The notes beneath the pieces were generated by a model. That model ran no database searches. It was not told the origin of the DNA and saw only the letters and a list, made by a program, of their open reading frames with translations. Shown here piece by piece: positions 9,127-23,097 of a DNA stretch of 25,188 nt. The stretch is from assembly GCA_002343505.1 (NCBI GenBank), contig DDQZ01000089.1, forward strand, positions 1 through 25,188, given 5' to 3'. The position numbers and the translations under genes are program-made. Source of the stretch: Verrucomicrobiaceae bacterium UBA2429. Its GTDB lineage: Bacteria; Verrucomicrobiota; Verrucomicrobiia; Verrucomicrobiales; Verrucomicrobiaceae. Positions within the stretch are counted from its first letter, which is position 1, and the number at the start of each line of letters is the position of its first letter.

Positions 9127-9156
9127 TGTCAGGGTTGGCTGAACTCCCGCGTTGCC
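9127..9156 (+). promoter_or_regulatory. ECF-type promoter of the PSCyt/DUF1552 operon
   Basis: TGTCAGG (9127-9133), 16 bases, CGTTGCC (9150-9156). The C of CGTT lies 14 bases before ATG 9164, so a transcript starting about 12 bases past it would be leaderless or nearly so. Both boxes and the spacer length are identical at the sigma gene promoter (21268-21297). Confidence 0.75.
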
Positions 9157-9163
9157 TGAAGAC

Positions 9164-11887
9164 ATGAGATTTCCGACGCTTGTGATGATCCTGCTGACCT
9201 GCTCCGCGATGGGGGCGGATTTTCGTGGCTTCTTGGAGGCGCATTGCCTGGAGTGTCATGACAATGAGATGAAGAAGGGCGATCTCGATTTGTCGTCGTT
9301 CACGGATGAGGCGGCGGTGATGCGGGATCGCGTGATCTGGCGCTCGGTGTTTGAAAAGATCGAATCGCATCAGATGCCGCCGCCGAAGCAGAAGTCGCAG
9401 CCGACCGAGGCGCAGCGGCAGGAGATCATGGCGTGGATCATGGACGTCGCGGCGAGGCCGGATGCGGACCTGGGAGCGGTTGATCCTGGAAAACCTGCGC
9501 TGCGGCGGCTGACGCGTTTGGAATACAACAACGCGATTCGCGACCTCTTTGGCCTGGAGATGGATCTCTTCATGTTTCCGGAGCGGTTGCCCATCCGCGA
9601 CAAGGGCTACTTCCAGCCTGCGAATGGCAAGATGCCGGACGAGCTCAAAATCGAGATGCGCGAGTATGGGGCGAAATATCCGGTGCTCTGCCCGCAACTG
9701 GGTTTGCCAGGGGACAACCGTGCTGAACACGGCTACCGCAATCGCGGAGATGCCCAGGATTTCTCGCCGCTGCTGCTGGAGAAATACCTCGCGGCCGCGC
9801 TGGAGATCGTGAACGCGCCAGAACTGCCGCGCCGCAGCCGTGTGTTTACCGAACTTGTTGGCATGAAGCAGGAAATGCAGGAGCCTGCGGACGTCTCATC
9901 CAACGCTCCGACTCTTGCGCCCGTCTACTCGCCGGACATCGAACGCGCCGCCAAAGCCGAGGGCAGTCCCGACTATCTGGAGCCCTTCCGGGAGCATGTG
10001 GCCTCGGCGCACGCAGACGGCCGCGGAGGTGTCTTCGATGTGCCGCGTGCGCTCGCCAACCAGACCATCGCCGGCAAAGGCGGGCTGATTCGTGCGGCCC
10101 TCGGTGCCCGCGCGCTCACCATCAATCCCGACAGCGATCTCTGGCTCGCTTCTTTTGCGACCACCAAGCCCGCCTCAGCTCCTGCGATCCTCACAAACAA
10201 GGTGAAAGGCGTGAAAACCTTTGAACTGACCTTCGACATCGTCAGCGAGGATGACGATGAGGGCATCGAGCGTCTCGGCGTTTGTGTCATGGGACGGCAA
10301 AAACAAAGCGGCATGGTCAAACTCACCGCTGTCTTTACCGACGGCACCGATGCCGCGATCACCGCCTTCATCGCTGAAGGCGCGGCAGGCACCACGTTCT
10401 ATTCCTTCGCCGCACCGTCTGGTGAGGCCATCAAGAAGCTCGCGGTGGATGGTTCGCAGTTCAGTGGTGACTATGTGCTGCTCGACGATCTCGGCATCAT
10501 CACCAATGGCGCGACACAGACACTCCTCTCTGTTCAAGGCCGCGAACCGGCGAAGCCTGAGAAAAAGGAAGGACAGACAAGAGTGTCTGTTTCACTCACT
10601 CCCCACGAACGGATTGAGGCATTCATGTCTCGTGCGTTTCGTCGCGAGGTGGCCGATGAAGAGCTTGCCCCCATTTTTTCGATCTTCCAAAACGCACGAA
10701 AAAGCGGCCGGTCAGAGGCGGATGCCATGAGAACCGCGATTTCCGCCGTCCTGTCCTCGCCGGGCTTTCTCTACGTTGAGGCCAATGGCGACGCGACGGC
10801 CGGCAAGGTTTCACGGCTGGAGGATCATGAGCTGGGCACCCGTCTCGCTCTCTTTCTCTGGTCATCCACACCCGATGACGAACTGCTCGCTCTCGCCAAA
10901 GCAGGCAAACTCCGAGACAACCTCGAAAACCAAGTCCGCCGCATGCTCAAAGAACGGCGCTCGCGCGAGCTGAGCGAGTCGTTTGCCGTGCAATGGCTGC
11001 GGCTTGATCAGCTCCACACTTCCAAACCCGACCGTGATCTGTTTCCGGGCTTCTACTCAGGTCCTCAGGGAAAATCCACACTTCATGGAGCGACACTTGC
11101 CGAGGCGCTGCTGCTTTTCGAAACGGTGCACGTGGAGGACCGCGGCATTCTCGACTTCCTCGCCGCAGACTACACCTGGCTGAACGCGCCGCTCGCCCGG
11201 CTTTACGGTCTTCAACTCGGCGCTGATGATCAAGCGCACGAAGTCGCTGCCAACACGAACCGCGAATTGAAGACGAAGAGCGACAAAGCCGCCCTCTGGC
11301 ATCGCGTGAAGCTGAGCGATGCGAATCGTGGTGGCTTCATGAGCATGGCCGCGCCGTTGGTCGTCACGTCTCTGCCCTTCCGCACGAGTCCGGTGAAGCG
11401 GGGCGCGTGGCTGCTGGAGACGCTTTTCAACCGACCGCCCACGGAGCCCAAGGTGGCCTTTGCCATTGAGAACGACACCAAGGAAGCCGCGCAGCAGATG
11501 AGCATCCGCGAGAAGTTCGAAGCGCATCGCAGCAAGGCCGCGTGCTACTCCTGCCACATCCGTCTGGATCCGCCCGGCTTCGCACTGGAACGCTTCAACC
11601 CCGTCGGGCAGTGGGATGAAAAAGCGGACGCGAAGGGCGAATGGTCCGGCAGCGCCTTTGACGGCCCCGCTGGCTTCAAGAGCATCCTCGCCCGCCATCC
11701 CCATGAGTTTACGAGAGGTTTCATCGAGCACCTCCTCAGCTACGCGCTGGGCCGAAAGCTGGAAGTTTATGACATGCCCGTGGTGGACCACATCCAGCGC
11801 GCTGCCGAGGCTGATGGCTGTAAATTCAGCCGTATCATTGTCGAGATCGTCCGATCTTATCCGTTCACCCACGTGCGCCGCTCATGA
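9164..11887 (+). CDS. Secreted PSCyt1/DUF1592-type cytochrome-like protein, no. 1
   Basis: A 907-residue exported protein of the planctomycete cytochrome family. A signal peptide is at 1-18 (MRFPTLVMILLTCSAMGA). The haem-type motif C28-LE-CH is in the PSCyt1 domain. LTRLEYNNAIRDLFGL (116-131) marks DUF1587. A family-atypical beta-rich insert occupies about 300-445. DUF1595 (about 480-540), DUF1592 (LFLWSSTPDDELL) and DUF1588 follow; DUF1588 carries a second CYSCH motif (794-798, then DPPGFALERF). DUF1585 ends the protein. Electron-transfer or substrate-oxidation roles are proposed for the family but unproven. ATG 9164 is preferred to TTG 9152. Its stop overlaps the next ATG (ATGA). A dispersed palindrome lies in frame at residues 450-477, in the linker before DUF1595. 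Confidence 0.88.
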   Translation: MRFPTLVMILLTCSAMGADFRGFLEAHCLECHDNEMKKGDLDLSSFTDEAAVMRDRVIWRSVFEKIESHQMPPPKQKSQPTEAQRQEIMAWIMDVAARPDADLGAVDPGKPALRRLTRLEYNNAIRDLFGLEMDLFMFPERLPIRDKGYFQPANGKMPDELKIEMREYGAKYPVLCPQLGLPGDNRAEHGYRNRGDAQDFSPLLLEKYLAAALEIVNAPELPRRSRVFTELVGMKQEMQEPADVSSNAPTLAPVYSPDIERAAKAEGSPDYLEPFREHVASAHADGRGGVFDVPRALANQTIAGKGGLIRAALGARALTINPDSDLWLASFATTKPASAPAILTNKVKGVKTFELTFDIVSEDDDEGIERLGVCVMGRQKQSGMVKLTAVFTDGTDAAITAFIAEGAAGTTFYSFAAPSGEAIKKLAVDGSQFSGDYVLLDDLGIITNGATQTLLSVQGREPAKPEKKEGQTRVSVSLTPHERIEAFMSRAFRREVADEELAPIFSIFQNARKSGRSEADAMRTAISAVLSSPGFLYVEANGDATAGKVSRLEDHELGTRLALFLWSSTPDDELLALAKAGKLRDNLENQVRRMLKERRSRELSESFAVQWLRLDQLHTSKPDRDLFPGFYSGPQGKSTLHGATLAEALLLFETVHVEDRGILDFLAADYTWLNAPLARLYGLQLGADDQAHEVAANTNRELKTKSDKAALWHRVKLSDANRGGFMSMAAPLVVTSLPFRTSPVKRGAWLLETLFNRPPTEPKVAFAIENDTKEAAQQMSIREKFEAHRSKAACYSCHIRLDPPGFALERFNPVGQWDEKADAKGEWSGSAFDGPAGFKSILARHPHEFTRGFIEHLLSYALGRKLEVYDMPVVDHIQRAAEADGCKFSRIIVEIVRSYPFTHVRRS
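10511..10595. repeat. Palindromic element, copy A (inside a CDS)
   Basis: Left arm 10511-10533 and right arm 10573-10595 are 23-base near-complements around a 39-base loop. The right-arm core is CAGACAAGAGTGTCTG and the left is ACAGACACTCCTCTCTGT. Each arm is also an internal hairpin (CAGACA...TGTCTG). It is translated in frame as TQTLLSV and GQTRVSVS within the interdomain linker of the PSCyt/DUF1592 protein. The loop is longer than the 12-13 bases of the simple copies. Confidence 0.85.
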
Positions 11888-13122
11888 TGAATCGCCGCCA
11901 TTTCCTCCGCTCCACCGGCATCACGCTCGGCCTGCCGCTTTTTGAAAGCCTTGCCAAGGCCGCGCCAGCAGCCTCACCGCGCCGCTTCGCCTTCATCTAC
12001 ACGCCGAACGGCTACCTGCAGAGCAAACTGCTTCCGCAAAAAGCCGCGCAGGGCCTGAACCCGCTGACTCTGACATCCACGCTGGAGCCTCTCTCGAAGA
12101 TCAAAGACGATCTCACCTTCATCACCGGCCTGGACCGCCAGTTTGTGCCAGGAACGGGCGTTCACGCGCAGGCAGGCTCTTGCTGGCTCACGTCATCCGC
12201 ACCGCAGGAGACTCTCGACGGCGGCTTCCCGACGAACCTCACGCTCGATCAGCTCATCGCCCGCCAGATCGGCGCGGACACGGCTCTACCTTCGCTGGAA
12301 CTCAGCACGAACGACTTCACCGACAACAAGGAGACGAAATACTTCGAATGCATCTCGTGGTATGGCCCCGGCTACGCGGCGAATACGGAAAAGAACCCGC
12401 GAGCCGTGTTTCAGCGTCTCTTTGGTCAAGGCCAGGGCGGCCCGCAACGCAGCATCCTCGACGCGGTGCTCGCGCAGGCACACAGCCTCGAGAAACGTCT
12501 CGGCGGTGAGGACAAACAAAAGCTCGGCGAGTATCTCGAAAGTGTCCGCAGCACCGAGCAGCGCATCCAACGCGCCGAGGCAGCCGCCAAACGCATCGGC
12601 AAGCCCCCGCTGCCGGAGCCGAAGGGCATTCCTGAAAAGCGCAGCGAGTATTTGAAGCTCATGGCCGAGCTGTTCATCCACGCTTTTCAAAATGACCTCA
12701 CCCGCGTCGCCACCCTGCTCGTCGCACCGGAGCGCTGGGACAATCCCACGCTCTACGACGGCCTTTTCGACAAACCGCAGAACCACCACGTCCTGACCCA
12801 TATCAAGGGCGATGAAGCCAAGGACAAGCTCGCCCTCATTGACCGCTATCACATGGAGTTCTACGCACACGTCGTCCAGCGTCTCAAAGCCACCAGCCTG
12901 CTCGACAGCACCACGCTCGTCATGGGCAGCGGCATCAGCGATGGCGACCAGCATAACTACGCCGACCTCCAAGTCCTCATCGCCGGAGGCGGCTGGAAGC
13001 GCGGCCATTTCCACTACGAAGGCAAACGTCCGCTGGCCGATCTCTGGCTCACGATGGCGCAACAAGCCGGCGTGAAGCAGGAACGCTTTGCGGACAGCAC
13101 GGGCATCTTGACCGAGATATGA
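11884..13122 (+). CDS. Tat-exported DUF1552 protein, no. 1
   Basis: A 412-residue protein of the DUF1552 family, which is nearly always encoded beside PSCyt/DUF1592 genes; its biochemical role is not established. The N-terminus NRRHFLRSTGITLGLPLF is a twin-arginine signal, suggesting export of a folded, possibly cofactor-bearing protein. Family features include FIYTPNGYL (about 39-47), FITGLDRQ, the serine-rich SSAPQETLDGG, and the C-terminal LLDSTTLVMGSGISDG motif with HNYADLQVLIAGGG. Start 11884 overlaps the preceding stop (ATGA); an adjacent ATG at 11887 is equally possible. The stop overlaps the next start, again as ATGA. Stoichiometric production with the two flanking cytochrome-type proteins is therefore likely. 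Confidence 0.88.
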   Translation: MMNRRHFLRSTGITLGLPLFESLAKAAPAASPRRFAFIYTPNGYLQSKLLPQKAAQGLNPLTLTSTLEPLSKIKDDLTFITGLDRQFVPGTGVHAQAGSCWLTSSAPQETLDGGFPTNLTLDQLIARQIGADTALPSLELSTNDFTDNKETKYFECISWYGPGYAANTEKNPRAVFQRLFGQGQGGPQRSILDAVLAQAHSLEKRLGGEDKQKLGEYLESVRSTEQRIQRAEAAAKRIGKPPLPEPKGIPEKRSEYLKLMAELFIHAFQNDLTRVATLLVAPERWDNPTLYDGLFDKPQNHHVLTHIKGDEAKDKLALIDRYHMEFYAHVVQRLKATSLLDSTTLVMGSGISDGDQHNYADLQVLIAGGGWKRGHFHYEGKRPLADLWLTMAQQAGVKQERFADSTGILTEI

Positions 13123-15404
13123 CCATGAGTTTAACCACAGAGACACCGAGCACACAGAGAACCACACAGAAGAATCCTCTGTGTGCTCCGTGCCTCTGTG
13201 GTTCAAAAGCGAAGCTCACGAATCTCTTCTCTGCGTTTCTCTGCGCCCTCTGCGGTTTCCTCCATGCCGCGCAGCCACCGCGTGCCGCGCTGGAGCGTTT
13301 CTGCATCGACTGCCATGATGCAGAGACGAAGAAAGGCGGTGTGGATCTCGATTCGATCCTCCAAGATGGCATCGCGAAACATCCGGCCACTTGGGAAAAG
13401 GTGGTGAAGCAGCTCAACGCCCGTCACATGCCGCCCATCGGCAAAAAGAGACCTGATGAGCAAGGCTACAATGAACTCATCACCGCGTTGACGACAGAAC
13501 TCGATGCCCAACCACCCCAAGCCATCGCTGGCCCGGCGTTTCGTCGTCTCACGCGCACCGAGTATCAAAACGCTGTGCGTGATCTGCTCGCGGTCGAGTT
13601 TGATGCGAAATCGGCCTTTCCAACGGACGAGATCAGCCACGGCTTTGACAACGTGACCGTCGGTGATTTGCCGCCCGCGCTACTCGACCGCTACATCAGC
13701 GCGGCGCAAAAGATCGCCCGACAGGCGGTGGGGACCTCCACACAGCCGGAGATCACCGCCATCCGTGTGCGGCCGGACATCACGCAGGAGTATCATGTGC
13801 CCGGATTGCCGCTCGGCACACGCGGCGGCGTGCTGGTGAAGCATGTCTTCGCGCAAAGCGGTGATTACGAGGTGCAGGTGCGCCTCCAGCGGGATCGCAA
13901 CGAGCAGGTCGAGGGCATGCACGGCCAGCATCAGCTCCAAATCCTGCTCGACCGCGAGGTGCGCAGCGAGTTCACCATCCAGCCGGCGAAGGACAAAAAC
14001 TACGAGAAGATCGACGCGCATCTCAAAGCCCGCGTTCACGTCGCCGGCAGCCAGCATGACCTCGGCGTGACGTTTCTGCCGAATGGCTCGCCCGTCCTCG
14101 AACGTCTCCGCCAGCCCTACAAGTCGAGTTACAACCTGCATCGCCATCCGCGTCTGAATCCCGCCGTGTATCAGGTCACCATCACCGGCCCGCTCAAGGC
14201 CGAAGGCGCGGGCGACACGCCGAGCCGTCGTTTGATCTTCGGAGCAGGCCAAACCGACCCCGAGGCCATCTTGAAGCCGATTATGCGTCGTGCGTGGCGA
14301 CGTGACATCACGGCGGCCGATCTGGAGCGCATGCTTCCATTCGTTCGCGAGGCGAAATCGCTCGAAAAAGGCATCGAATCGGCTCTCGCGGCCATTTTGG
14401 TCAGTCGCGAGTTTTTGTTCCGCACGGAGCAAAAGGGCGATGAAGCCGCTTTGGCCTCCAAACTGGCTTTTTTCCTCTGGAGCAGCCTTCCCGATGATGA
14501 ACTGCTCTCGCAGCGCCGACTCGATCTCGAAGCGCAGGCCCGCCGCATGCTGCGCGATCCGCGTTCGAAGGCGCTCGTGACCAACTTCGCCGATCAATGG
14601 CTCTACCTGCGCAATCTCGATGCCATCACGCCGGATGCGCGCTTGTATCCCGACTTCGATCACAACCTCCGCGAATCGCTGCGCACGGAGACGAGCCTGC
14701 TCTTCGCCGATGTGATCGAAAACGACCGCAGCGTGCTCGATCTGCTGCGCACCGACCGCACATGGCTCGATGAACGCCTCGCAGCTCACTACGGCATCCC
14801 GCACATCCACGGAAGCCGCTTTCGCGAGGTGAAACTCGACGCGCCAACGCAACGTGGCGGCCTGCTGCGTCAGGGCAGCATCCTCACCGTCACCAGCTAC
14901 GCCACTCGAACCTCACCGGTGATTCGCGGGCACTGGATTTTGAAGAACCTGCTCGTCACCGAGCCACCACCGCCGCCGCCAAACGTGCCCGCCCTCGATG
15001 GCGTCATCTCCGAAAGCCTCCCCATCCGCGAGCGACTTGCTAAGCATCGCGAAATGGCCGCCTGTGCCAGTTGCCACAACCTCATGGACCCCGTCGGCTT
15101 CGCCTTGGAAAACTACGATGCCATCGGCCGCTGGCGTGCCGAGGCCGATGCACGCGGCGGTTTCGCCGACGGCAGCGAGTTCGAAGGCGTGGGCGGCCTC
15201 GAAGACACCCTCATGAAGCGCCCCGAACTCTTCGTCACCGCTTTGACGGAAAAACTCATTGTCTATGCCCTCGGTCGCGGCCTCGAAGCCAGCGATATGC
15301 CCGCCGTGCGGAAGATCGTGAGCCGGGCGAAGGCGAATGGCTGGAAGTTCAGTGAGATCATCGTCGGCATCGTGACGAGTGCTTCGTTTGGCACCTCACA
15401 GTGA
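13119..15404 (+). CDS. Secreted PSCyt1/DUF1592-type cytochrome-like protein, no. 2
   Basis: A 761-residue relative of gene no. 1. Haem-type motifs are C62-ID-CH (PSCyt1) and C649-ASC-H (CASCHNLMDPVGFALENYD, DUF1588). DUF1587 begins at LTRTEYQNAVRDLL (144-157). A beta-rich domain spans about 225-370, followed by DUF1595, DUF1592 (FLWSSLPDDELL) and DUF1585 (YALGRGLEASDMPAV). The N-terminus is odd: the first 25-30 residues are encoded by a 27-base-arm palindrome, and the hydrophobic core FSAFLCALCGFLHA is encoded by a further repeat-like stretch. No other in-frame start exists between 13125 and the domain, so ATG 13119 (ATGA overlap with the previous stop) or 13125 must be used. The TGA stop lies inside palindrome copy B. 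Confidence 0.86.
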   Translation: MTMSLTTETPSTQRTTQKNPLCAPCLCGSKAKLTNLFSAFLCALCGFLHAAQPPRAALERFCIDCHDAETKKGGVDLDSILQDGIAKHPATWEKVVKQLNARHMPPIGKKRPDEQGYNELITALTTELDAQPPQAIAGPAFRRLTRTEYQNAVRDLLAVEFDAKSAFPTDEISHGFDNVTVGDLPPALLDRYISAAQKIARQAVGTSTQPEITAIRVRPDITQEYHVPGLPLGTRGGVLVKHVFAQSGDYEVQVRLQRDRNEQVEGMHGQHQLQILLDREVRSEFTIQPAKDKNYEKIDAHLKARVHVAGSQHDLGVTFLPNGSPVLERLRQPYKSSYNLHRHPRLNPAVYQVTITGPLKAEGAGDTPSRRLIFGAGQTDPEAILKPIMRRAWRRDITAADLERMLPFVREAKSLEKGIESALAAILVSREFLFRTEQKGDEAALASKLAFFLWSSLPDDELLSQRRLDLEAQARRMLRDPRSKALVTNFADQWLYLRNLDAITPDARLYPDFDHNLRESLRTETSLLFADVIENDRSVLDLLRTDRTWLDERLAAHYGIPHIHGSRFREVKLDAPTQRGGLLRQGSILTVTSYATRTSPVIRGHWILKNLLVTEPPPPPPNVPALDGVISESLPIRERLAKHREMAACASCHNLMDPVGFALENYDAIGRWRAEADARGGFADGSEFEGVGGLEDTLMKRPELFVTALTEKLIVYALGRGLEASDMPAVRKIVSRAKANGWKFSEIIVGIVTSASFGTSQ
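13133..13203. repeat. 27-base-arm palindrome (AACCACAGAG type), copy 1
   Basis: Arms at 13133-13159 and 13177-13203 match as inverted repeats at 25 of 27 positions, with a 17-base loop. The left arm starts AACCACAGAGACACCGAG and the right arm ends TGCCTCTGTGGTT. It lies within the 5' coding end of the second PSCyt gene. A second copy is at 23105-23180. I recall similar CACAGAG palindromes as dispersed repeats in this and other phyla, which a genome search would confirm. Confidence 0.85.
13229..13257 (+). repeat. Half-copy-like sequence of the CACAGAG palindrome
   Basis: The stretch from CTCTGCGTTTCTCTGCG to the closing CTCTGCGGTT follows the right-arm pattern CTCTGTG...CTCTGTGGTT with T-to-C changes. 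It encodes the hydrophobic core FLCALCG of the signal peptide. It could be a diverged single arm or coincidental low-complexity sequence. Confidence 0.5.
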
Positions 15405-15458
15405 CACAGACACTCCTGTCTGTGATTCTCCGTCGGCAGACAGGAGTGCCTGCCTCAC
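15401..15458. repeat. Palindromic element, copy B, between convergent genes
   Basis: Arms 15401-15423 and 15436-15458 flank a 12-base loop. Each arm begins GTGA on its own strand. The left-arm TGA (15402-15404) is the stop of the PSCyt gene, and the right-arm TGA on the minus strand (15455-15457) is the stop of the converging 107-residue gene. The strong hairpin may also act as a bidirectional terminator, although no T-run follows. Confidence 0.88.
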
Positions 15459-15778
15459 ACCCAGTCCTCGCAGGGATCGATGCGGCCTTCGCGCTCATCA
15501 GCCATTTTCCAGTGAAACGGCAGTCCGTGACTCCCATGCGTGACCGGTTCCCAGCCGAAGCGGGATCGAAAAGTATGGTAAGCCGGCGAGTCCCGCAGAG
15601 GAATCCAGTCAAACACATCCTTCCATCCGGCAAACAGCTTCCAGTCGTCTCGCTCGGGGAAAACACCGAAGTCAAATGCCCCGCAGATCCGATGCACATA
15701 GTCAGCCCGGTCCGCCATGGTGTGAAGCTCCAGTGGCGGCTCGGCGAGATCAGGGTAAACAGAGTGATCGAGATTCAT
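15455..15778 (-). CDS. Small unknown protein coupled to the AbiEii-like gene
   Basis: 107 residues, family not recognised. The protein is rich in tryptophan, aspartate and histidine (DDWKLFAGWKDVFDWIPLRDS, broken here as DDWKLF / AGWKDVFDWIP) and ends PCEDWV. It has no signal peptide or membrane segment, so it is probably cytoplasmic. The ATG at 15778 overlaps the stop of the nucleotidyltransferase gene (ATGA at 15775-15778). This coupling is the main evidence that the frame is real and suggests a functional pair. The longer open frame to 15994 runs antiparallel through the upstream gene and is ignored. The stop codon is contributed by palindrome copy B, so the last residues may have been altered by its insertion. 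Confidence 0.72.
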   Translation of the reverse strand: MNLDHSVYPDLAEPPLELHTMADRADYVHRICGAFDFGVFPERDDWKLFAGWKDVFDWIPLRDSPAYHTFRSRFGWEPVTHGSHGLPFHWKMADEREGRIDPCEDWV

Positions 15779-16464
15779 CGGGGACCGGCTGGGCAAAATA
15801 CATCCCGATACCAGCTGCGCAAGGCTGCCGCCTGAGCACGGGACTCGGCTGGCAACTTCGACACGGGCCGCATGAGTTCCAGCTTTTCCACATAAAACAG
15901 AACCTTTTCCGGCCCCTCGGGTGGGTCGCGGTGGGTGTTCTTTGCCTGCCACATGGCCCAGCACTCTTCGATGGTGGTAATGCTCTGCGTGCATAGTTGG
16001 TGGATGTCTCGAAGATCACGCGGTGCACCACGCTCGACCAGCGCTGTCATCTTCGACGCCACATTGTCCCGCAGCGTCTCAATCCACAGCGGCTGCCATT
16101 CCGCCGGCACCGGTTCATCGAGGTAAAGGCCGCGCTTGCTGATCTGGAATGAAAACTCCTTCTGGCCTCCTCGCATGAGTTCCAGACTTTCGGTTTCTCC
16201 CCAAGTTCTCCGCCGGTAGTCGAGGCCGTGCCTTGCGGCGAGAGACTTCATGGCCCCCTCGACAAAGGCGAGAACCTCGGACCGGGGCGACTCGCGCCAC
16301 CAAGCATCCAGATCGACCGTTTCGCGATATTCAAGGTAGTGGCTCAGCGCCACGCCACCACCGAGCACGATTTCCGCCGCCTCCGCATGACCCGCGAGGC
16401 TCTCCAGCAGCTCGCGGGAGAAGGGATTCAGGTTTTGCGGGGGCTTGGGACGGATGTTCTGCAT
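15775..16464 (-). CDS. AbiEii/AbiGii-type nucleotidyltransferase
   Basis: A 229-residue cytoplasmic protein of the nucleotidyltransferase superfamily related to the AbiEii toxin of type IV toxin-antitoxin and phage-abortive systems. The motif GGGVALSHYLEY (35-46) is followed by the metal-binding VDLDAWW with Asp51 and Asp53. Downstream, ASKMTALVERGAPRDLRDIHQL matches the conserved lysine and RD..D region of AbiEii proteins. The usual upstream antitoxin gene (AbiEi) is absent. Instead the gene is followed by a coupled 107-residue gene of unknown type. It is divergent from DUF1552 no. 2, with an 85-base spacer containing a hairpin and the ECF promoter of that gene. The fold is fairly sure; activity as a toxin is inference. 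Confidence 0.78.
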   Translation of the reverse strand: MQNIRPKPPQNLNPFSRELLESLAGHAEAAEIVLGGGVALSHYLEYRETVDLDAWWRESPRSEVLAFVEGAMKSLAARHGLDYRRRTWGETESLELMRGGQKEFSFQISKRGLYLDEPVPAEWQPLWIETLRDNVASKMTALVERGAPRDLRDIHQLCTQSITTIEECWAMWQAKNTHRDPPEGPEKVLFYVEKLELMRPVSKLPAESRAQAAALRSWYRDVFCPAGPR

Positions 16465-16465
16465 T

Positions 16466-16484
16466 GCCGGGCAGTTTGCCCGGC
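16466..16484. promoter_or_regulatory. Inverted repeat between divergent genes
   Basis: GCCGGGCA, three bases, TGCCCGGC (perfect 8-base arms), immediately upstream of the AbiEii-like start codon (minus) and 30 bases upstream of the ECF promoter on the plus strand. It could be an operator for the minus-strand pair; a chance hairpin is possible. Confidence 0.4.
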
Positions 16485-16513
16485 ATGATTGCCTTTCTCA
16501 AGAGCGGGCTTTG

Positions 16514-16543
16514 TGTCAGTTTCCCCTCCTCAACACCGTTTCA
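16514..16543 (+). promoter_or_regulatory. ECF-type promoter of DUF1552 gene no. 2
   Basis: TGTCAGT (16514-16520), 16 bases, CGTTTC (from 16537). The C of CGTT is 13 bases before ATG 16550, again leaving essentially no leader. The site supports the choice of that start codon. Confidence 0.7.
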
Positions 16544-16549
16544 CCCGTC

Positions 16550-17878
16550 ATGAGCACCTTCACCACGCGCAAAGCTTTGTCCCGCCGCCATCTGCTGCGC
16601 GGCGTGGGGGCGACGTTGTCGCTGCCGTTTCTGGAGGCGATGATCCCGGCCGCCACGGCGGCGAATCGGGTGGCGCAGCCAGCAAAACGACTGAGCTACA
16701 TTTACATCCCGATGGGCACGGATCACTCGCGGTGGAATCTCGGCGCGACGAGCACACTGGAGCAGCTTTCGCCGATTTTGAAGTCGCTGGAGCCGGTGCG
16801 GCAGCATTGCGCGGTCGTTTCGAACCTCGAACTCGAGCCCGCCTATCCCGGCACGCATGCCACATCGAATGCCAGCTTCCTCAGCGCTGCGCGAGTGAAG
16901 CACACGGAGAGCAGCGACTACTACAATGGCACCACCGCCGACCAGATCGCCGCGAAGGCCATCGGGCAGCAGACGCAACTGCCGTCGCTCGAACTCGCGA
17001 TGGACCTCATGCAGGTCGTCGGCCAGTGCGACAACGGCTACGCCTGCGTGTATCAAAACAATCTGTCGTGGTCCTCTCCCACCACGCCGTTGCCGGCCGA
17101 GGCGCATCCTCGGCTCGTGTTTGAGCAGCTCTTTGGCGATGGCGGCAGCAAAACGGATCGCCAGGCCGCATTGGAGCGACGGGCGAGCTTGCTCGACTTC
17201 ATCAAGGACGACATGCAGCGTCTCGCGAAGCAACTCGGCCCGCAGGATCGAGATCGTGTGAATCAATACCTCGACAGCATCCGCGAGGTCGAGCGCCGCA
17301 TCGAAAAAGCGCAGGCCTCCGTCGCGGAAAACGAGCTGCCGGATCTCTCGCGACCGAGCGGCGTGCCTGCGAGCTACGCGGAGCATGCGCGGCTCATGTT
17401 TGACCTCCAGCTCCTCGCCATACAGGGCGATGTCACGCGTGTCATCACCTTCCAGCTCGCCCGCGAGACCTCGAACCGCACCTATCCCGAGATCGGCGTC
17501 AGCGATCCGCATCATCCCCTCAGCCATCACGGCAACGATCCGGCCAAGATCGAGCGCATGTCGAAGATCAATGCCTTCCACGTCAGCCTCTTCGCCGAAT
17601 ACCTCGCCAAACTCGCCTCTGTGAAGGAAGGCGACGGCACGCTGCTCGATCACACGCTGCTCCTCTACGGCAGCGGCATGGGCAATCCGAACGTCCACGA
17701 CCACACCAACCTCCCCATCATCGTCGCCGGTGGTGCAAGCACTGGCGTCAAAGGCAGCCGCCACCTGCGAAATGATAAAACCATCCCGCTCGCGAATCTG
17801 CATCTCACGCTGCTCGACAAGGCAGGCGTGAAGCTGGACAAGTTCGGAGATAGCAGCGGAATCATCGAGGTGCTGTGA
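16550..17878 (+). CDS. Tat-exported DUF1552 protein, no. 2
   Basis: A 442-residue DUF1552 protein. The twin-arginine signal SRRHLLRGVGATLSLPFLEAM is at about 11-31 (read as SRRHLLR followed by a hydrophobic run). Family features are YIYIPMGTDHSRW (about 54-66), a VVSNLELEPAYPGTHA segment, FEQLFGDGG, a helical DRVNQYLDSIREVERRIEKAQ region, and the C-terminal LLDHTLLLYGSGMGNPNVHDH with LPIIVAGG. The frame is open from 16445, but the Tat signal and the promoter at 16514-16543 support ATG 16550. Unlike no. 1 it has no adjacent DUF1592 partner in the window. Its 3' end overlaps the converging HNH gene by 17 bases. It is presumably co-expressed with the first operon through the shared promoter type. 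Confidence 0.88.
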   Translation: MSTFTTRKALSRRHLLRGVGATLSLPFLEAMIPAATAANRVAQPAKRLSYIYIPMGTDHSRWNLGATSTLEQLSPILKSLEPVRQHCAVVSNLELEPAYPGTHATSNASFLSAARVKHTESSDYYNGTTADQIAAKAIGQQTQLPSLELAMDLMQVVGQCDNGYACVYQNNLSWSSPTTPLPAEAHPRLVFEQLFGDGGSKTDRQAALERRASLLDFIKDDMQRLAKQLGPQDRDRVNQYLDSIREVERRIEKAQASVAENELPDLSRPSGVPASYAEHARLMFDLQLLAIQGDVTRVITFQLARETSNRTYPEIGVSDPHHPLSHHGNDPAKIERMSKINAFHVSLFAEYLAKLASVKEGDGTLLDHTLLLYGSGMGNPNVHDHTNLPIIVAGGASTGVKGSRHLRNDKTIPLANLHLTLLDKAGVKLDKFGDSSGIIEVL

Positions 17879-18287
17879 TGAGCACTCCGGCTTCGATCAA
17901 CCACCTCCGCTCCTCTACCTTCTCGGGAGCGTTGAGTTGAAGCAGGTTGGCCGTGACGCGGCCTGTGGCTGTCTTTCCTTTGATGAAGCCACCACGCAGT
18001 TCGAAATGCTCACTCCAGGCATCCAGACGTGGATGAAACAGCGCGGTGAGCCGACCATCTAAAGGGTCGATGGAGGACAAATCGGAACCCTTGGCCTGAT
18101 TGCAGAGGATGAAGGATAGGGCCAGATTTTCCTCCGTGGTCTGGCCGCCGTGCTTTTGCGCGATGATGTGATCCACATGATGCGTGTTGAAGCTAAACTG
18201 CTCCGGCAACAGGCAGTATTCACAGGCTTCGTGCGCACGATCACGCACGAGACGCCTGACATCTGCCGGGATGTGCGCTGCGCTCAT
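17862..18287 (-). CDS. HNH endonuclease-like protein
   Basis: 141 residues, cytoplasmic. A zinc-type pair CEYC is at 22-25. The HNH core HHVDHIIAQKHGG (36-48, Asp39/His40) is followed by NLALSFILCNQAKGSDLS (54-71), where CN..KG is typical of the family. The C-terminal half is less conserved. It belongs to small stand-alone HNH nucleases; DNA cleavage is inferred from the intact motif. It is translationally coupled (ATGA at 18284-18287) to the preceding 117-residue gene, as in many small two-gene cassettes. The stop lies inside the 3' end of the converging DUF1552 gene, a compact arrangement suggesting insertion or close packing. Confidence 0.85.
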   Translation of the reverse strand: MSAAHIPADVRRLVRDRAHEACEYCLLPEQFSFNTHHVDHIIAQKHGGQTTEENLALSFILCNQAKGSDLSSIDPLDGRLTALFHPRLDAWSEHFELRGGFIKGKTATGRVTANLLQLNAPEKVEERRWLIEAGVLITAPR

Positions 18288-18637
18288 GCGGGCTTGAGCT
18301 TCAGTGCTGCTTTGGCCTTCGCCACCCGCACGAGGTGCTCGACTCGCTTGATCTCATCCCACTCAGCCTGCTCCTCCAGCGTCAAGCCTATCTCGCTGTT
18401 CTTCCTCAGCAGCGCCTCGGCACGTTCCGATGCCTCCGCCGAAGGACGAAGCGCTAGCACCTCCTGCGGAGAAGGCAGGGCAGCGAGCATCTCGGTCACA
18501 TCGCTCAACTGCTGAACCTCTCGATGTTGCGCTCCACGCCAGCGTTTCAGACCTGCCGTCAGCACGGCGACGAGGTCCGTTTCGTTCTTTGGCATGTAGG
18601 CCGCCAGTTCGTCAGGAACATTCAAGGTCAAGGTCAT
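18284..18637 (-). CDS. Small antitoxin-like partner of the HNH gene
   Basis: 117 residues. The start MTLTLNVPDELAAYMP, followed by a basic helix (VLTAGLKRWRG), resembles a short ribbon-helix-helix-like N-terminus of addiction-module antitoxins. The remainder is a charged helical region (SAEASERAEALLRKN, EEQAEWDEIKRVEHL) and a lysine-rich end. ATG 18637 is chosen; an in-frame GTG at 18661 would add eight residues. Similar small genes occur upstream of HNH genes in other bacteria (from memory, not checked). The ATGA overlap with the HNH gene indicates coupled expression. Role as antitoxin or DNA-binding partner is inference. Confidence 0.72.
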   Translation of the reverse strand: MTLTLNVPDELAAYMPKNETDLVAVLTAGLKRWRGAQHREVQQLSDVTEMLAALPSPQEVLALRPSAEASERAEALLRKNSEIGLTLEEQAEWDEIKRVEHLVRVAKAKAALKLKPA

Positions 18638-18683
18638 GCCCTGAGTTTGCACGACTGGCACGGAATCGGCAAGCCATCATTCC

Positions 18684-18712
18684 TGTCAGGAGACGAGCGC
18701 ACCGAGCGTTGC
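18684..18712 (+). promoter_or_regulatory. ECF-type promoter of the ankyrin gene
   Basis: TGTCAGG (18684-18690), 16 bases, CGTTGC (18707-18712). The C of CGTT is 15 bases before ATG 18722. The site supports that start over the upstream in-frame ATG at 18524, which lies antisense within the antitoxin-like gene. Confidence 0.72.
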
Positions 18713-18721
18713 TACCTGAGC

Positions 18722-20215
18722 ATGCCGTGGACCCTCCCAGCTATCGTTCTTCTCTTTTCCAGCCTCACACTGGCGAGGGCGTTTACTGACCTCCCCGCAT
18801 GCGCCGAAAAACAGGACTGGGACGCCGTTTCCGCTCAAATTGCCTCCAAGGCCGATTTGAATGCCGCGCAGGCCGATGGAGCGACGGCGCTGCACTGGGC
18901 GGCTTACCATGACAAGGCCGAGATCGTCGAAAAGCTGCTCGCAGCGGGCGCGGAGGCCGATGTGGCGAATCGTTATGGCATCACGCCGTTGCTGCTCGCG
19001 TGTGAAAATGGCAGTGAAGGCATCGTGCGGGCGCTTTTGAAAGCGGGGGCCGATCCGCAGGCGAAAAGACGTGGTGGTGAGACCGCGCTCATGATTGCCA
19101 GCCGCACGGGTCGAGTCGGCGCGGTGGCGGCCTTGCTCGAAAAAGGCGCGAAAGTGGACGCGCAGGATCGTGAGGATCAAACCGCGCTCATGTGGGCTGC
19201 GGCGGAAGGTCATGCGGAGGTCATCGACTTGCTCGTGAAGCACGGCGCGAAGGTCGATCATCGGCTCAAATCGGGCTTCACGGCTTTTTTGTTCGCCGCA
19301 CGCGAGGGAAAGAGCGCGGCGGTGAAGAAGCTGCTTCAACTCGGTGCCGATGTGCATGACGCCATCGATACGAAAGAGTTCACCGGAGGCCGCGACGCGC
19401 CGAATGGCACCAGCGCGGTGCTTTTGGCCGCGGAGAATGGCCACTTCGAGCTGGCGATGGATCTCATCCGCGCCGGAGCCGATCCGAATGACATGCGCAA
19501 CGGCTTCACCGCGCTGCACACGATCACCTGGGTGCGCAAGCCGCCGCATGGCGATGACGAGGCCGGCCAGCCGCCGCCGGACACGCATGGCAAACTGAGC
19601 AGCCTCGATTTCATCCGCGAGATCGTAAAGGCGGGCGCCAAGGTCGATGCCACGCTCGCCAAAGTAGCCAAGGCAAAGGCGTTTGGCGCGATCAACTTCC
19701 ACGGAGCCACGCCTTTTCTGCTCGCCTGCCGAAACGCCGATCTGGAAATGATGAAGCTGCTCGTCGAACTCGGCGCGGACCCGCACAAGCCCAACGCCGA
19801 CGGCTCCACGCCGCTCATGGCCGCTGCGGGTCTCGGCTGCTACGCGCCCGATGAAGAAGCCGGAACGGAAGATGAATGCGTGGCGGCTTGCAATTACCTC
19901 ATCAGCCTCGGCGCGGAAGTGAATGCGGTGGACAATAAGAACCAGACCGCCATGCACGGCGCGGCCTATAAAAGCCTGCCGAAGGTCGCCCAACTCCTTG
20001 CCGCGAAAGGCGCGAAGATTGCCGTGTGGAATCAAAAGAACGATCGCGGCTGGACACCGTTGCTCATCGCGCAAGGCTTCCGCCCCGGAAATTTCAAACC
20101 CAGCGTGCCCACCATCACTGCCATCAGCGAGATCATGCGTGCGAATGGCATCGAGCCACCACCAGCGCCAGATCGCGACGCTTTGCCGAAGAAGAAGGGC
20201 TATGAGCAGCGATGA
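18722..20215 (+). CDS. Secreted ankyrin-repeat protein
   Basis: A 497-residue exported protein. Signal peptide 1-20 (MPWTLPAIVLLFSSLTLARA) is followed almost entirely by about ten ankyrin repeats, with recognisable units such as DGATALHWAAYHDKAEIVEKL, YGITPLLLACENGS, EDQTALMWAAAEGHAEVIDLL, NGTSAVLLAAENGHFEL and HGATPFLLACRNADLEMMKLL (each quoted in part). Two repeats carry insertions, a proline/glycine-rich one near residues 275-290 and an acidic one near 380-388. The C-terminus is basic. Ankyrin arrays bind proteins, so a scaffold role in the periplasm or outside is likely; the partner is unknown. The promoter match links it to the ECF regulon, and the SGNH gene follows 84 bases downstream with palindrome copy C between them. 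Confidence 0.88.
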   Translation: MPWTLPAIVLLFSSLTLARAFTDLPACAEKQDWDAVSAQIASKADLNAAQADGATALHWAAYHDKAEIVEKLLAAGAEADVANRYGITPLLLACENGSEGIVRALLKAGADPQAKRRGGETALMIASRTGRVGAVAALLEKGAKVDAQDREDQTALMWAAAEGHAEVIDLLVKHGAKVDHRLKSGFTAFLFAAREGKSAAVKKLLQLGADVHDAIDTKEFTGGRDAPNGTSAVLLAAENGHFELAMDLIRAGADPNDMRNGFTALHTITWVRKPPHGDDEAGQPPPDTHGKLSSLDFIREIVKAGAKVDATLAKVAKAKAFGAINFHGATPFLLACRNADLEMMKLLVELGADPHKPNADGSTPLMAAAGLGCYAPDEEAGTEDECVAACNYLISLGAEVNAVDNKNQTAMHGAAYKSLPKVAQLLAAKGAKIAVWNQKNDRGWTPLLIAQGFRPGNFKPSVPTITAISEIMRANGIEPPPAPDRDALPKKKGYEQR

Positions 20216-20225
20216 CCGCCTTTCC

Positions 20226-20284
20226 GTGAAACAGACACTCCTGTCTGTTTTCTCCCGAACCACAGACAAGAGTGTCTGTGTCAC
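20226..20284. repeat. Palindromic element, copy C (intergenic)
   Basis: Arms 20226-20248 and 20262-20284 around a 13-base loop; cores CAGACACTCCTGTCTG and CAGACAAGAGTGTCTG. It lies between the co-directional ankyrin and SGNH genes, starting 11 bases after the ankyrin stop and ending 15 bases before the next ATG, so it may attenuate or process the joint transcript. Confidence 0.88.
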
Positions 20285-20299
20285 TTTCCACAAGACCTC

Positions 20300-21211
20300 A
20301 TGAAACTCCACCTTCTCTTCGCTTACCTCCTGCTACCCGTTGCTTCGCTTTGGGCTGATGCCCAAACTACTTTGCTCTTCGCCGGCAGCAGCAGCATGTA
20401 TTGGAACGATTTGCCGCGCGAAGTTGCAAAGCTCGTCGATGGCAAAATCGCCGGTCACCTCGGCGAACAGGTCATTCCCGAAGCCGTGGGCCGCAGCGGC
20501 AGTGACATCCGCGTGTATCTGGAGCCCGGCTTCAATCGCTACGAATACGGCGTGAAGCCCGGACAAAGCTTCCTCGACAAAATCGCCACGGAGAAGCCCG
20601 ACATCGTGCCGATGATGGTCGTGTGCCGTTTCATCATGGGCGACGACGCGCCGACGAATGGCAACCCCGACCACGCCACGGCCATCACCCGCTACTGCGA
20701 GGCCATCCGCGCCGCCGGAGGCGAGCCGATGTTTTATGAGATGGGCTGGGGCAAGACCGAACGCGAGGCCGAGGGCCGCCAGCGCATCCTCGAACTCGCC
20801 AAGAAGAACAAGGTCACTCTCTTCGCACCCTGCTCCACGGCTTGGGCGCGTGTCTATGCCGAGAAACCCGATCTCGCTCTCCAGCATCCGCAGGACAACG
20901 CGCATCCCGGCGATGCAGGCCACTTTTTGAACCTCGCCTGTTTCTACGCCGCGCTCACGCGTGAATCGCCCGTCGGCAAACTGCCGCGCACCTACCCCGT
21001 CTGGCCCCACGGCAAGTATGAGGCCGATGAAGCCAAGCTAGCCGCCTTCCAGCCCGATGCCTACCAGGCGAAGATGGCGAAGTGGATGTTCAAACACATG
21101 TCCATGCACGCCACGGCCACTTTGGACGATGAAACGGCCTGTTACCTCGAAACCGTGGCTTGGGAGACTTGGCAGGCCGTGAGCCAGACACTCCTGTCTG
21201 GCCAAAAGTGA
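20300..21211 (+). CDS. Secreted SGNH/GDSL-hydrolase-like protein
   Basis: A 303-residue exported protein. Signal peptide 1-20 (MKLHLLFAYLLLPVASLWAD), then a block-I-like GSSSMYWNDL with Ser30-32. GRSGSD (64-69) and a C-terminal block V, QDNAHPGDAGHFL, follow; Asp199 and His202 there keep the DxxH spacing of SGNH esterases. The catalytic set looks plausible, but the GDSL block is atypical (GSSS), so substrate and activity are unknown; a carbohydrate esterase is one possibility. The last eleven or so residues (AVSQTLLSGQK) are encoded by palindrome copy D, which also provides the TGA. The native C-terminus has therefore probably been replaced or extended. No separate promoter of the ECF type precedes it, so it may be co-transcribed with the ankyrin gene. 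Confidence 0.78.
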   Translation: MKLHLLFAYLLLPVASLWADAQTTLLFAGSSSMYWNDLPREVAKLVDGKIAGHLGEQVIPEAVGRSGSDIRVYLEPGFNRYEYGVKPGQSFLDKIATEKPDIVPMMVVCRFIMGDDAPTNGNPDHATAITRYCEAIRAAGGEPMFYEMGWGKTEREAEGRQRILELAKKNKVTLFAPCSTAWARVYAEKPDLALQHPQDNAHPGDAGHFLNLACFYAALTRESPVGKLPRTYPVWPHGKYEADEAKLAAFQPDAYQAKMAKWMFKHMSMHATATLDDETACYLETVAWETWQAVSQTLLSGQK

Positions 21212-21267
21212 TGCTGGCACTCCTGTCTGCATTCTGGGAGACAAACAGACAAGAGCGCCTGTTTCAC
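21179..21267. repeat. Palindromic element, copy D (two left arms, one right arm)
   Basis: Left-arm units at 21179-21201 and 21208-21230 and a right arm at 21245-21267 (CAGACAAGAGCGCCTG core). It looks like a truncated copy followed by a complete one. The first unit encodes the C-terminus of the SGNH-like protein and the second supplies its stop. The right arm ends on the base before the -35-like box of the ECF sigma gene. Confidence 0.82.
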
Positions 21268-21297
21268 TGTCAGGCCGCGCTGACTTCATCCGTTGCC
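21268..21297 (+). promoter_or_regulatory. ECF-type promoter of the sigma/FecR operon (autoregulatory candidate)
   Basis: TGTCAGG (21268-21274), 16 bases, CGTTGCC (21291-21297), with CGTT 14 bases before ATG 21305. Boxes, spacing and start distance are the same as at 9127-9156, although the spacers differ in sequence, as expected for a sigma factor recognising its own promoter. Confidence 0.75.
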
Positions 21298-21304
21298 CAG
21301 AGAC

Positions 21305-21823
21305 ATGCCACTCGATCACGAAACCATCTTGAAACACCTCTTTGAGGCCAGGCAGCGGCTCAGCGGGGTGGCGTGGCTCATGGTGCGGGATGCGCAGGCG
21401 GCGGAGGATCTGTTTCAAAACGTCGCGCTGAAGTCGGTGACGAAGAATGTGGCCTTCGAGCACGAGGGCGCGCTGCTTTCGTGGGCGATGGTCTCGATCA
21501 AGCGCGAGTCCATCGACTGGCTGCGCAAGCGCAAGCCTGAGACACTCGGCCTGGAGCCGGAGGTGCTTGATTTGATCAGCGAGGAGTGGTCCGCGCATCC
21601 GCAGCCCGAGGGCCAGCGCATGGAGGCGCTGCGAGAGTGCCTGGCTTCCGTGCCGGAGAAGTCTCGTCAGCTTCTGCATCTGCGCTACTTCGACGGGCAT
21701 TCGTGTGATGAAGTCGCGCGGAAGGTCGGGGCGAATGTCGATGCGGTTTATCAAAGGCTCTCGCGGCTGCATCGGCAGCTCAAGCAGTGTGTGGAGCAGC
21801 GGCTGAAACCAGCAACACCATGA
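21305..21823 (+). CDS. ECF-type RNA polymerase sigma factor
   Basis: 172 residues, with only sigma regions 2 and 4, as in extracytoplasmic-function factors of the Rhodopirellula/Verrucomicrobium group. Region 2 covers about 8-78, with DAQAAEDLFQNVALK (2.1/2.2) and LLSWAMVSIKRESIDWLRKRK (2.3/2.4, quoted in two overlapping parts). Region 4 covers about 112-165, with LASVPEKSRQLLHLRYFDG and the helix-turn-helix SCDEVARKVGANVDAVYQRL. ATG 21305 is preferred to TTG 21293, which overlaps the -10-like box. The stop overlaps the FecR start (ATGA at 21820-21823), a typical sigma/regulator pair. The promoter immediately upstream is shared with three or four other genes in the window, so this is the likely regulator of the cluster. 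Confidence 0.92.
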   Translation: MPLDHETILKHLFEARQRLSGVAWLMVRDAQAAEDLFQNVALKSVTKNVAFEHEGALLSWAMVSIKRESIDWLRKRKPETLGLEPEVLDLISEEWSAHPQPEGQRMEALRECLASVPEKSRQLLHLRYFDGHSCDEVARKVGANVDAVYQRLSRLHRQLKQCVEQRLKPATP

Positions 21824-23097
21824 ACGACGACCTTCTCATCCAACGCTATATCGATGGAAGCCTCTCGCGTGAGGACATCGCGGTGCTGAATCAGCGCCTG
21901 CGTGACAACGCGGACTTGCGCCAGCATCTGCGGGACATCGCGGAGCAAGTGGTGGCATTCGGTGATCTGGCACGGCAACATCGTGAAAAAGACACTCCTG
22001 TCTGTTCTCCCAAACAGCCAGACAAGAGTGTCTGGCTCACTTCTCTGGCCCTCGCCGCATCCATCGCGGTGCTGGCGGCCAGTGCGTGGCTTTTCTTCGC
22101 CAGCAAGCCCGATGCGGTGCTCACGCTCGTCGAAAGCACCGGCACCGTTGCATGGAGCGATGGCACGCTTATCGCGAGCGGTGAGAGATTGCCCGCGGGC
22201 ACGTTGGAGACGGTGGGCGAGGCCAGCAGCGCGTTGCTGCGCTTTGACGATGGATCGCTCATCACGCTGCATGGCGACGCGGAGCTTTCTTTTGCCAGCG
22301 AGCATCAAAAAGTGCTCTCGCTCACCCGCGGCACGCTTTCCGCCGAGGTGCGGCCGCAGCCTGCGGGTCGTCCGATGCTGATCCGCACGCCCAGCGCCGT
22401 GGCGGAGGTCGTGGGCACCGCGTTTGACCTTTCCACGAGGTCGGAAGACACGCTGCTGAAGGTCAACGAGGGCCTGGTGAAGCTGAAACGCCTCGCCGAT
22501 GGCAGCGAGATCGACGTGCCCGCCAATCGCAGCGCCGTGGCCTCGCTGGACACCGGCGCGGCGCTCGACACAGCCTCCACGCCGGAGCCGCTGACCGCGT
22601 GGCGCTTTGATTTCACCAGCAGCACTCCGCCACGCGACTGGCGTGGCTTTTCCAAAAACGGCGCGATGCACGCCAGCCCCTACGTCGCCAAAAAAATGCC
22701 CGATGGTCGCGTTGTCACCCACCACGGCATCTCCATCCGCACCGCAATGCTGGAGCAGCCCCTGCGCCTGATCGCCACTGAGCTCAGCGTCATTAAATAC
22801 CGCCTGCGGCAGGATCAGCCGGGCGATCTGCAACTCATGCTGCTGACGAATCGAACGGAAGGTGGTTTTGGCGGCAACTTCGAATGCAAAATCCCCGCCG
22901 AGGAACTTCGTCCCGGCCCGGATGGCTGGTGCGAGATCGCCATCCCGATCAATCGCTACGAGCCCATCGATCCTCGTCCGCACCTTCGCAAACGCCATCC
23001 CTCCGCCGTGGGCAACGTCATTACTTCTGCCATCATCAGCACCTTCCGCGAGGACCGCCATTTGGAGGTCAGCCACTTCGAGCTCGGCACGCGCTGA
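21820..23097 (+). CDS. FecR-family transmembrane sigma regulator
   Basis: 425 residues, and probably the partner of the ECF sigma factor. Residues 1-55 form a cytoplasmic anti-sigma-like helical domain (YIDGSLSREDIAVLNQRL). One membrane segment is at about 75-94 (SLALAASIAVLAASAWLFFA). The periplasmic FecR domain spans about 100-235 (GEASSALLRFDDGSLITL, TPSAVAEVVGTAFDL). A beta-rich C-terminal domain (about 258-425) has FDFTSSTPPRDW near its start and may bind a ligand; its family is not recognised. Palindrome copy E is inserted in frame at residues 55-74 (KDTPVCSPKQPDKSVWLT), exactly between the cytoplasmic domain and the membrane segment. FecR proteins may inhibit or activate their sigma factor; the sign is not visible here. 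Confidence 0.9.
   Translation: MNDDLLIQRYIDGSLSREDIAVLNQRLRDNADLRQHLRDIAEQVVAFGDLARQHREKDTPVCSPKQPDKSVWLTSLALAASIAVLAASAWLFFASKPDAVLTLVESTGTVAWSDGTLIASGERLPAGTLETVGEASSALLRFDDGSLITLHGDAELSFASEHQKVLSLTRGTLSAEVRPQPAGRPMLIRTPSAVAEVVGTAFDLSTRSEDTLLKVNEGLVKLKRLADGSEIDVPANRSAVASLDTGAALDTASTPEPLTAWRFDFTSSTPPRDWRGFSKNGAMHASPYVAKKMPDGRVVTHHGISIRTAMLEQPLRLIATELSVIKYRLRQDQPGDLQLMLLTNRTEGGFGGNFECKIPAEELRPGPDGWCEIAIPINRYEPIDPRPHLRKRHPSAVGNVITSAIISTFREDRHLEVSHFELGTR
21983..22040. repeat. Palindromic element, copy E (inside the FecR gene)
   Basis: Arms 21983-22005 and 22018-22040 around a 12-base loop. It is translated in a different frame from copy A (DTPVC and DKSVWLT rather than QTLLSV). It forms the linker just before the membrane helix, a place that tolerates extra residues. 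Confidence 0.88.

Follow-up and report, generated by a model that had tools for sequence, protein, structure and literature searches.

A 25,188-nt stretch of DNA from Verrucomicrobiaceae bacterium UBA2429 (GCA_002343505.1, contig DDQZ01000089.1, positions 1 to 25,188; hereafter the window) carries a gene for an extracytoplasmic function (ECF) sigma factor, and four of its genes, that of the sigma factor included, are preceded by the same short dyad. The locus raises the question of whether these dyads are promoters of the sigma factor and, if so, which genes respond to it. A pattern scan of the window revealed TGTCAG[G/T]-N16-CGTT[G/T]C at 9127, 16514, 18684 and 21268, all on the plus strand, whereas 100 dinucleotide shuffles gave a mean of 0.01 matches. 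The spacer was 16 nt long in 4/4 sites, and CGTT started 14, 13, 15 and 14 nt before the respective ATG (Table 1). The first-pass annotation of this DNA had described the sites in the same way (coordinates, strand, 16-base spacer, 13-15 nt to the start), and a reading of the sequence found all of this exact; its gene assignments (a PSCyt/DUF1552/PSCyt operon, a second DUF1552 gene, an ankyrin gene and the ECF sigma gene) were upheld by a domain search. The 172-aa product matched Sigma70_r2 and Sigma70_r4_2 above cut-off, which places it among ECF (group IV) factors. The comparisons described below indicate that the four sites are very probably promoters read by the ECF sigma factor whose gene lies at 21305-21823, and they strongly support a single ECF/FecR regulon that is autoregulated and consists mainly of exported-looking proteins.

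The source genome (G000, 5.96 Mb in 113 contigs, with the window at C75:1-25188) contained 7 matches to TGTCAG-N17-CGTTNC, 4 of these in the window, and the reversed control gave 0. When a start codon was demanded and the -10 box was loosened to CGT, 10 matches were obtained in this genome vs 1 in the control. The same kind of wider pattern with ATG, applied to 56 genomes, gave about 106 matches vs 14 in the controls, with other motif types included in these counts. The same motif stands before the sigma gene and before putative target units and is enriched over chance, as expected of an autoregulated regulon. Related dyads were also present elsewhere in G000: at C73:112095-113545 (L055, L056 and L138), TGTCAGA-N16-CGTTCC and TGTCAGA-N16-CGTCTT lie 5' of two ORFs, one coding for an exported-looking protein and the other a short MNRRAFL ORF. 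Because TGTCAGA..CGTTYCAGCC sites occur in genus genomes that lack the sigma ortholog (G010 and G019), another sigma factor may read the C73 sites.

A search of 48 genomes of the genus identified sigma orthologs with 71-96% identity in 10 other genomes, the remaining listed matches having at most 39% identity. Two fragments were also found: that of G057 matches residues 1-79 with 75% identity and contains an in-frame stop, and that of G062, cut by a contig edge, matches 47 residues with 77%. The promoter site and a FecR ORF are still present around the interrupted sigma gene of G057 (C46; L107, L137). The site was kept 5' of the sigma gene in 15/15 readable orthologs from the genus and near relatives, the window included; 12 of these were exact with a spacer of 16, two had a spacer of 15 (L135 = G001, and L181) and one had a single mismatch (L179). 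Between these orthologous upstream regions the spacer sequences were strongly diverged. In the same scan no site was detected for the FecR gene that follows the sigma gene, the best candidate having 3 mismatches. For PSCyt1, the site (with at most one mismatch or a spacer of 15) was present in 8/10 orthologs with a readable start, and the two orthologs devoid of it were located 3 nt behind FecR. TGTCAG-N17-CGTT preceded DUF1552-2 in 8/10 orthologs with a readable upstream region, and the GDSL-like gene had its own site in G016. In G015, PSCyt1 and DUF1552-2 lie on contig C5 and keep their sites there, although the sigma gene is located on C2.

The exact form of the motif also followed the presence of the sigma gene. 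TGTCAGK-N16-CGTTBC was found 62 times in the 48 genus genomes, which were divided into a sigma-bearing set of 13 genomes with an ortholog or fragment (12 with matches) and a sigma-less set of 35. An ATG 4-17 nt further on, opening an ORF of 100 codons or more, was present for 27/37 matches in the sigma-bearing genomes vs 2/25 elsewhere (Fisher p 3e-7, a value that ignores phylogeny). The genes behind these 27 sites code for the sigma factor, PSCyt, DUF1552, ankyrin, GDSL-like and other exported-looking proteins. One of the two sigma-less matches precedes a PSCyt-like gene in G014, a genome that is 81% complete. The genus contained 12 close copies of DUF1552-2 (at least 88% identity, one a fragment); 10 belonged to sigma-bearing genomes, and the exceptions were G020 and G023.

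The position of the sites relative to gene order was examined for eight gene families in 27 loci, after removal of one duplicate contig. Genes located up to 60 nt behind the preceding ortholog had a site in 0/38 cases and genes at 61-100 nt in 7/10, whereas those farther away or with no ortholog before them, considered heads of units, had a site in 31/37. Among the six heads with no site, two were PSCyt2 genes (L122 and L123) that follow a transposase-like insert on the same strand; the others were the ankyrin gene of L122, preceded by another ankyrin-like ORF, DUF1552-1 of L124, preceded by an insert with no clear content, the GDSL-like gene of L131, directly after a leucine-rich gene that carries its own site, and PSCyt2 of L128, with an uncertain start and TGTCAGC-N16-CGTTGC close by. 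The insert between DUF1552-1 and PSCyt2 in L122 and L123 appeared RAYT-like by eye and had GGGCTTCAGCCC-type hairpins on both flanks. In the window and in G031, G032 and G023, a minus-strand insert splits the ankyrin gene from DUF1552-2, and the ankyrin gene has a site to itself; where it directly follows DUF1552-2, it has none. The insert at this junction codes for an HNH protein in the window and an HNH-like one (by eye) in G031, and appeared PIN-like by eye in G032 and G023. Likewise, DUF1552-1 is located apart from its operon in G004 and G031 and is preceded there by a separate site.

Beyond the genus, 64 loci (849 kb, genus relatives included) were collected from a species genome collection with the sigma ortholog alignment as bait. 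Their titles name Verrucomicrobiota, Planctomycetota and Lentisphaerae; most are metagenome-assembled genomes (MAGs) and some titles are probably wrong (e.g., Akkermansia muciniphila). Over the 849 kb, GTCAGG-N16-CGTT occurred 63 times on the strand of the sigma gene and 2 times on the opposite one, compared with a mean of 1.6 and a maximum of 3 in shuffles and 0 in the reversed control. At least one such strict site on the sigma strand was present in 53/64 loci and a FecR-like ORF in 55/64. A blind search that counted every dyad of the form 5-mer/gap/4-mer across 38 non-redundant sigma upstream regions returned TCAGG-16-CGTT at the top with 19/38 regions (tied with its own overlap GTCAG-17-CGTT), the shuffled maximum being 3. 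In the unselected columns of 19 non-redundant sites, T preceded GTCAGG in 84%, A followed it in 84% (position 7), T was present at position 9 in 79%, and the second base past CGTT was a pyrimidine in 19/19. Targets were surveyed by listing 57 of 98 sites with no obvious sigma start and submitting the proteins behind 20 of them to Pfam. In 14/20 cases, the protein started within 60 nt of the site; these were PSCyt/PSD, DUF1552, sulfatase, HlyD-type, pseudopilin-like, DUF1559, leucine-rich, GH2-type, GDSL-like and ankyrin proteins, the last in three builds, one with a beta-propeller. The other 6/20, with starts 113-215 nt off, are weaker assignments and include a beta-lactamase-fold protein and a secretin-domain protein. 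Exported-looking ankyrin proteins with a site recurred in distant lineages. Comparison thus shows the putative promoter dyad (T)GTCAGG(A)-N16-CGTTNY to be tied to the sigma clade, at the head of sigma, PSCyt, DUF1552, ankyrin and similar genes. The earlier proposal of an ECF/FecR regulon of exported proteins is supported by comparison as to a putative autoregulated set, as judged from conserved sites at orthologs and at unit heads; its extent was understated, as the predicted promoter is not confined to this 14-kb locus and accompanies the sigma clade in loci titled Verrucomicrobiota and Planctomycetota.

The sigma factor itself was placed by profile and tree. Its best match was TIGR02989 (Sig-70_gvs1, the Rhodopirellula/Verrucomicrobium sigma family), nearly full length and with 103.2 bits; this score and those of the four other orthologs scanned (101.2-112.9) do not reach the curated cut-off of 124.55. 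A maximum-likelihood tree was built from 50 sigma proteins and contained long branches; in it, a single branch (95/97; present in 97% of bootstraps) divided the 31 chosen orthologs from two sister groups and from six proteins of the source genome above the TIGR02989 cut-off. In one sister group (L102-L120), 14/18 loci had TGTCGAG and, usually at a distance of 16 nt, a CGTA-type -10 in front of its own genes; in 13 loci the start codon followed 10-12 nt later. A TGTCGA-type motif belongs to ECF42. For the third clade, two upstream regions were examined (L117 and L103), which showed TGTCAGA- or GGTCAGT-N15-CGTC. These sister clades support a shared putative promoter type with altered letters. 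The region 4 recognition helices of the three clades read YQRLSRLH, YQALARLH and YKALSRLH. A code resting on a single helix residue, R or A, did not hold up, since A is found in the third clade too, where the -35 is nevertheless of the TGTCAG type (in two regions).

Several observations weigh against attributing the dyad to this sigma factor. In the sigma-bearing genomes, 9/37 matches had no long ORF behind them (a tenth precedes the sigma gene with the in-frame stop), and the genomes compared are related and mostly MAGs, which the p-values ignore. G023 has sites at DUF1552-2 and ankyrin genes, yet no close sigma ortholog was found in it. In the wider set, only 32/61 loci had TGTCAG-N16-18-CGT within 75 nt 5' of the sigma gene. 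In L185-L190 and L194 there was none directly 5' of it, the site lying several kb upstream on the same strand before another gene, and in L185, L187, L188, L190, L193 and L194 a site was located downstream of the sigma gene. The strict site was missing from the sigma strand in 11/64 loci, comprising contig edges (L180 and L224), a spacer of 15 (L178 and L181), TGTCAGT (L218), CGTC (L206) and five loci (L220, L221, L225, L230 and L232) with no good candidate in the available stretch. Finally, TGTCAGA-N16-CGTTCC stands 5' of an ATG in sigma-less G010, and the CGTTTC form occurs in sigma-less G019; other sigma factors therefore probably read similar sites.

The last observation, the G023 sites and the 28 matches to the sigma family model in G000 would fit a reading in which the dyads are ECF promoters served by another, or by several overlapping, ECF sigma factors of the same genome. 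This is unlikely, since the exact [G/T] form before long ORFs tracks the sigma ortholog, the loci that keep the site 5' of this sigma gene come from two phyla, and a sister clade has its distinct motif TGTCGAG-N16-CGTA at its own genes. There is very little to be expected from the view of the dyad as a conserved leader element or as the operator of a DNA-binding regulator, for which the PAS-AraC-type gene at 8243-9004, divergent from site 1, would be a candidate: no obvious symmetry was visible by eye, the spacer is fixed at 16 nt, the end of CGTT lies 8-13 nt before the start codon in 31/35 sites 5' of sigma, the site is conserved together with the sigma gene, and the same geometry has been published for ECF41 (PMC3426412). 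Chance, or the copying of four upstream regions from one mobile or duplicated stretch, which the inserts and repeats of the locus might suggest, can practically be set aside, as shuffles, genome counts and reversed controls rule out the former and spacers and flanks unrelated by eye the latter.

The first-pass annotation had placed the -35 outside the usual AAC-type boxes and considered a new specificity; this was overstated, and a wholly new -35 was rejected, because TGTCACA-n16-CGTC is a published ECF41 promoter (PMC3426412). The two systems share a TGTCA-type -35, a 16-nt spacer, a CGT-type -10 and a site 5' of both the partner gene and the sigma gene. The sites described here differ from that ECF41 promoter in TGTCAGG instead of TGTCACA and CGTT instead of CGTC; the sigma factor has no fused C-terminal regulatory domain (by Pfam, the protein ending after region 4), and its partner is a FecR protein and its targets are others. 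TGTCAGG is best called a variant of the ECF41 promoter type, presumably read by a different sigma clade. On the side of the targets, the ECF factor RB10049 of Rhodopirellula baltica was suggested as a regulator of the planctomycete-specific cytochrome protein PSD/PSC RB10051 (PMC2754498 citing Studholme), likewise an ECF factor tied to a PSCyt-type protein, and no promoter motif is given with it in the part of the paper seen. A literature search revealed nothing on this promoter, the ECF re-classification, in which a prediction may have been published, being outside its reach. As far as searched, the TGTCAGG variant in its own sigma clade, its occurrence across two phyla and its predicted targets appear new.

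Transcription from ECF promoters begins 5-9 nt past the -10. Given this and the CGTT spacing, the messages of these units would be leaderless or nearly so, and a Shine-Dalgarno-like 4-mer was present in 1/35 sites 5' of sigma. The putative ECF41 leaders measure 31-199 nt in the part of the published table seen, whereas those predicted here would be near zero. The FecR protein matched PF04773 with 54 bits, its gene overlaps the sigma gene by ATGA, and a helix at residues 76-94 was present in the structure model (low confidence at 86-96); a FecR-domain anti-sigma factor with a membrane helix adjoining the sigma gene is the arrangement of FecI/FecR cell-surface signalling, which together with PupR ranks among the nearest described counterparts. 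The C-terminal part of FecR is predicted from the model to be carbohydrate-binding-module (CBM)-like, and structure comparison of this domain pointed to no single CBM family, as many jelly-rolls tied within 1 Z; the likeness offers a lead to a saccharide signal. In the proposed mechanism, FecR would keep the sigma factor at the membrane until a periplasmic ligand, perhaps a saccharide bound to the CBM-like domain, frees it. Region 4 would then read TGTCAGG and region 2 CGTT, transcription would start at the start codon or a few bases 5' of it, with no Shine-Dalgarno sequence, and the freed sigma factor would close a single positive loop by boosting its own operon along with the exported PSCyt/DUF1552/ankyrin proteins.

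Table 1. Predicted promoters, genes and inserts of the window.
Feature	Coordinates	Strand	Basis or position
PAS-AraC-type regulator, divergent from PSCyt1 operon, site 1 in between	8243-9004	-	
ECF-type promoter 1 (predicted), TGTCAGG-N16-CGTTGC	9127..9155	+	8 nt 5' of ATG 9164
PSCyt1/PSD protein (DUF1587-DUF1595-DUF1592-DUF1588-DUF1585)	9164..11887	+	Pfam domains
DUF1552 (HXXSHH) protein no. 1, operon-internal	11884..13122	+	domain match
Second PSCyt/PSD protein (PSCyt2), operon-internal	13119..15404	+	domain match
AbiEii-type nucleotidyltransferase, insert	15775-16464	-	Pfam
ECF-type promoter 2 (predicted), TGTCAGT-N16-CGTTTC	16514..16542	+	7 nt 5' of ATG 16550
DUF1552 protein no. 2 (DUF1552-2)	16550..17878	+	domain match
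HNH nuclease and small partner of no assigned family, inserts	17862-18287, 18284-18661	-	profile search
ECF-type promoter 3 (predicted), TGTCAGG-N16-CGTTGC	18684..18712	+	9 nt 5' of ATG 18722
Ankyrin-repeat protein, signal-peptide-like N-terminus (by eye)	18722..20215	+	domain match
Exported-looking protein, GDSL-like match weak, below cut-off	20300..21211	+	
ECF-type promoter 4, autoregulatory (predicted), TGTCAGG-N16-CGTTGC	21268..21296	+	8 nt 5' of ATG 21305
ECF sigma factor, 172 aa	21305..21823	+	nearest family TIGR02989, below its cut-off
FecR-type anti-sigma (predicted)	21820..23097	+	N-terminal helices, membrane-type helix, FecR domain, C-terminal jelly-roll

The start of PSCyt2 is uncertain because its N-terminal 40-50 or so residues are not conserved. 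The gene between the ankyrin and sigma genes is a further member of the set and probably shares an operon with the ankyrin gene. A 23-nt inverted repeat, GTGAAACAGACACTCCTGTCTGT, was present at 20226-20284 of the window and may be REP (repetitive extragenic palindrome)-like or a terminator; stretches resembling it by eye were also seen 5' of the sigma gene in the window and its relatives.

Taken further, and only tentatively, the comparisons may describe a sigma clade of Verrucomicrobiota and Planctomycetota with its own leaderless promoter code TGTCAGGA-N16-CGTTNY and a saccharide-sensing FecR switch, controlling PSCyt/PSD, DUF1552 and exported ankyrin proteins that lack an assigned function, with sister clades as a natural series of changed code (TGTCGAG-N16-CGTA; TGTCAGA-N15-CGTC) and matching changes of the recognition helix. 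Sister clades with sister promoters form a data set on how ECF region 4 picks its -35, and the locus shows readers of genomes that an observation by eye of four short matches can be settled through comparison. The predicted targets are poorly understood exported, cytochrome-like proteins; a predictable promoter lists the genes that would respond together and shows where a reporter could find the signal.

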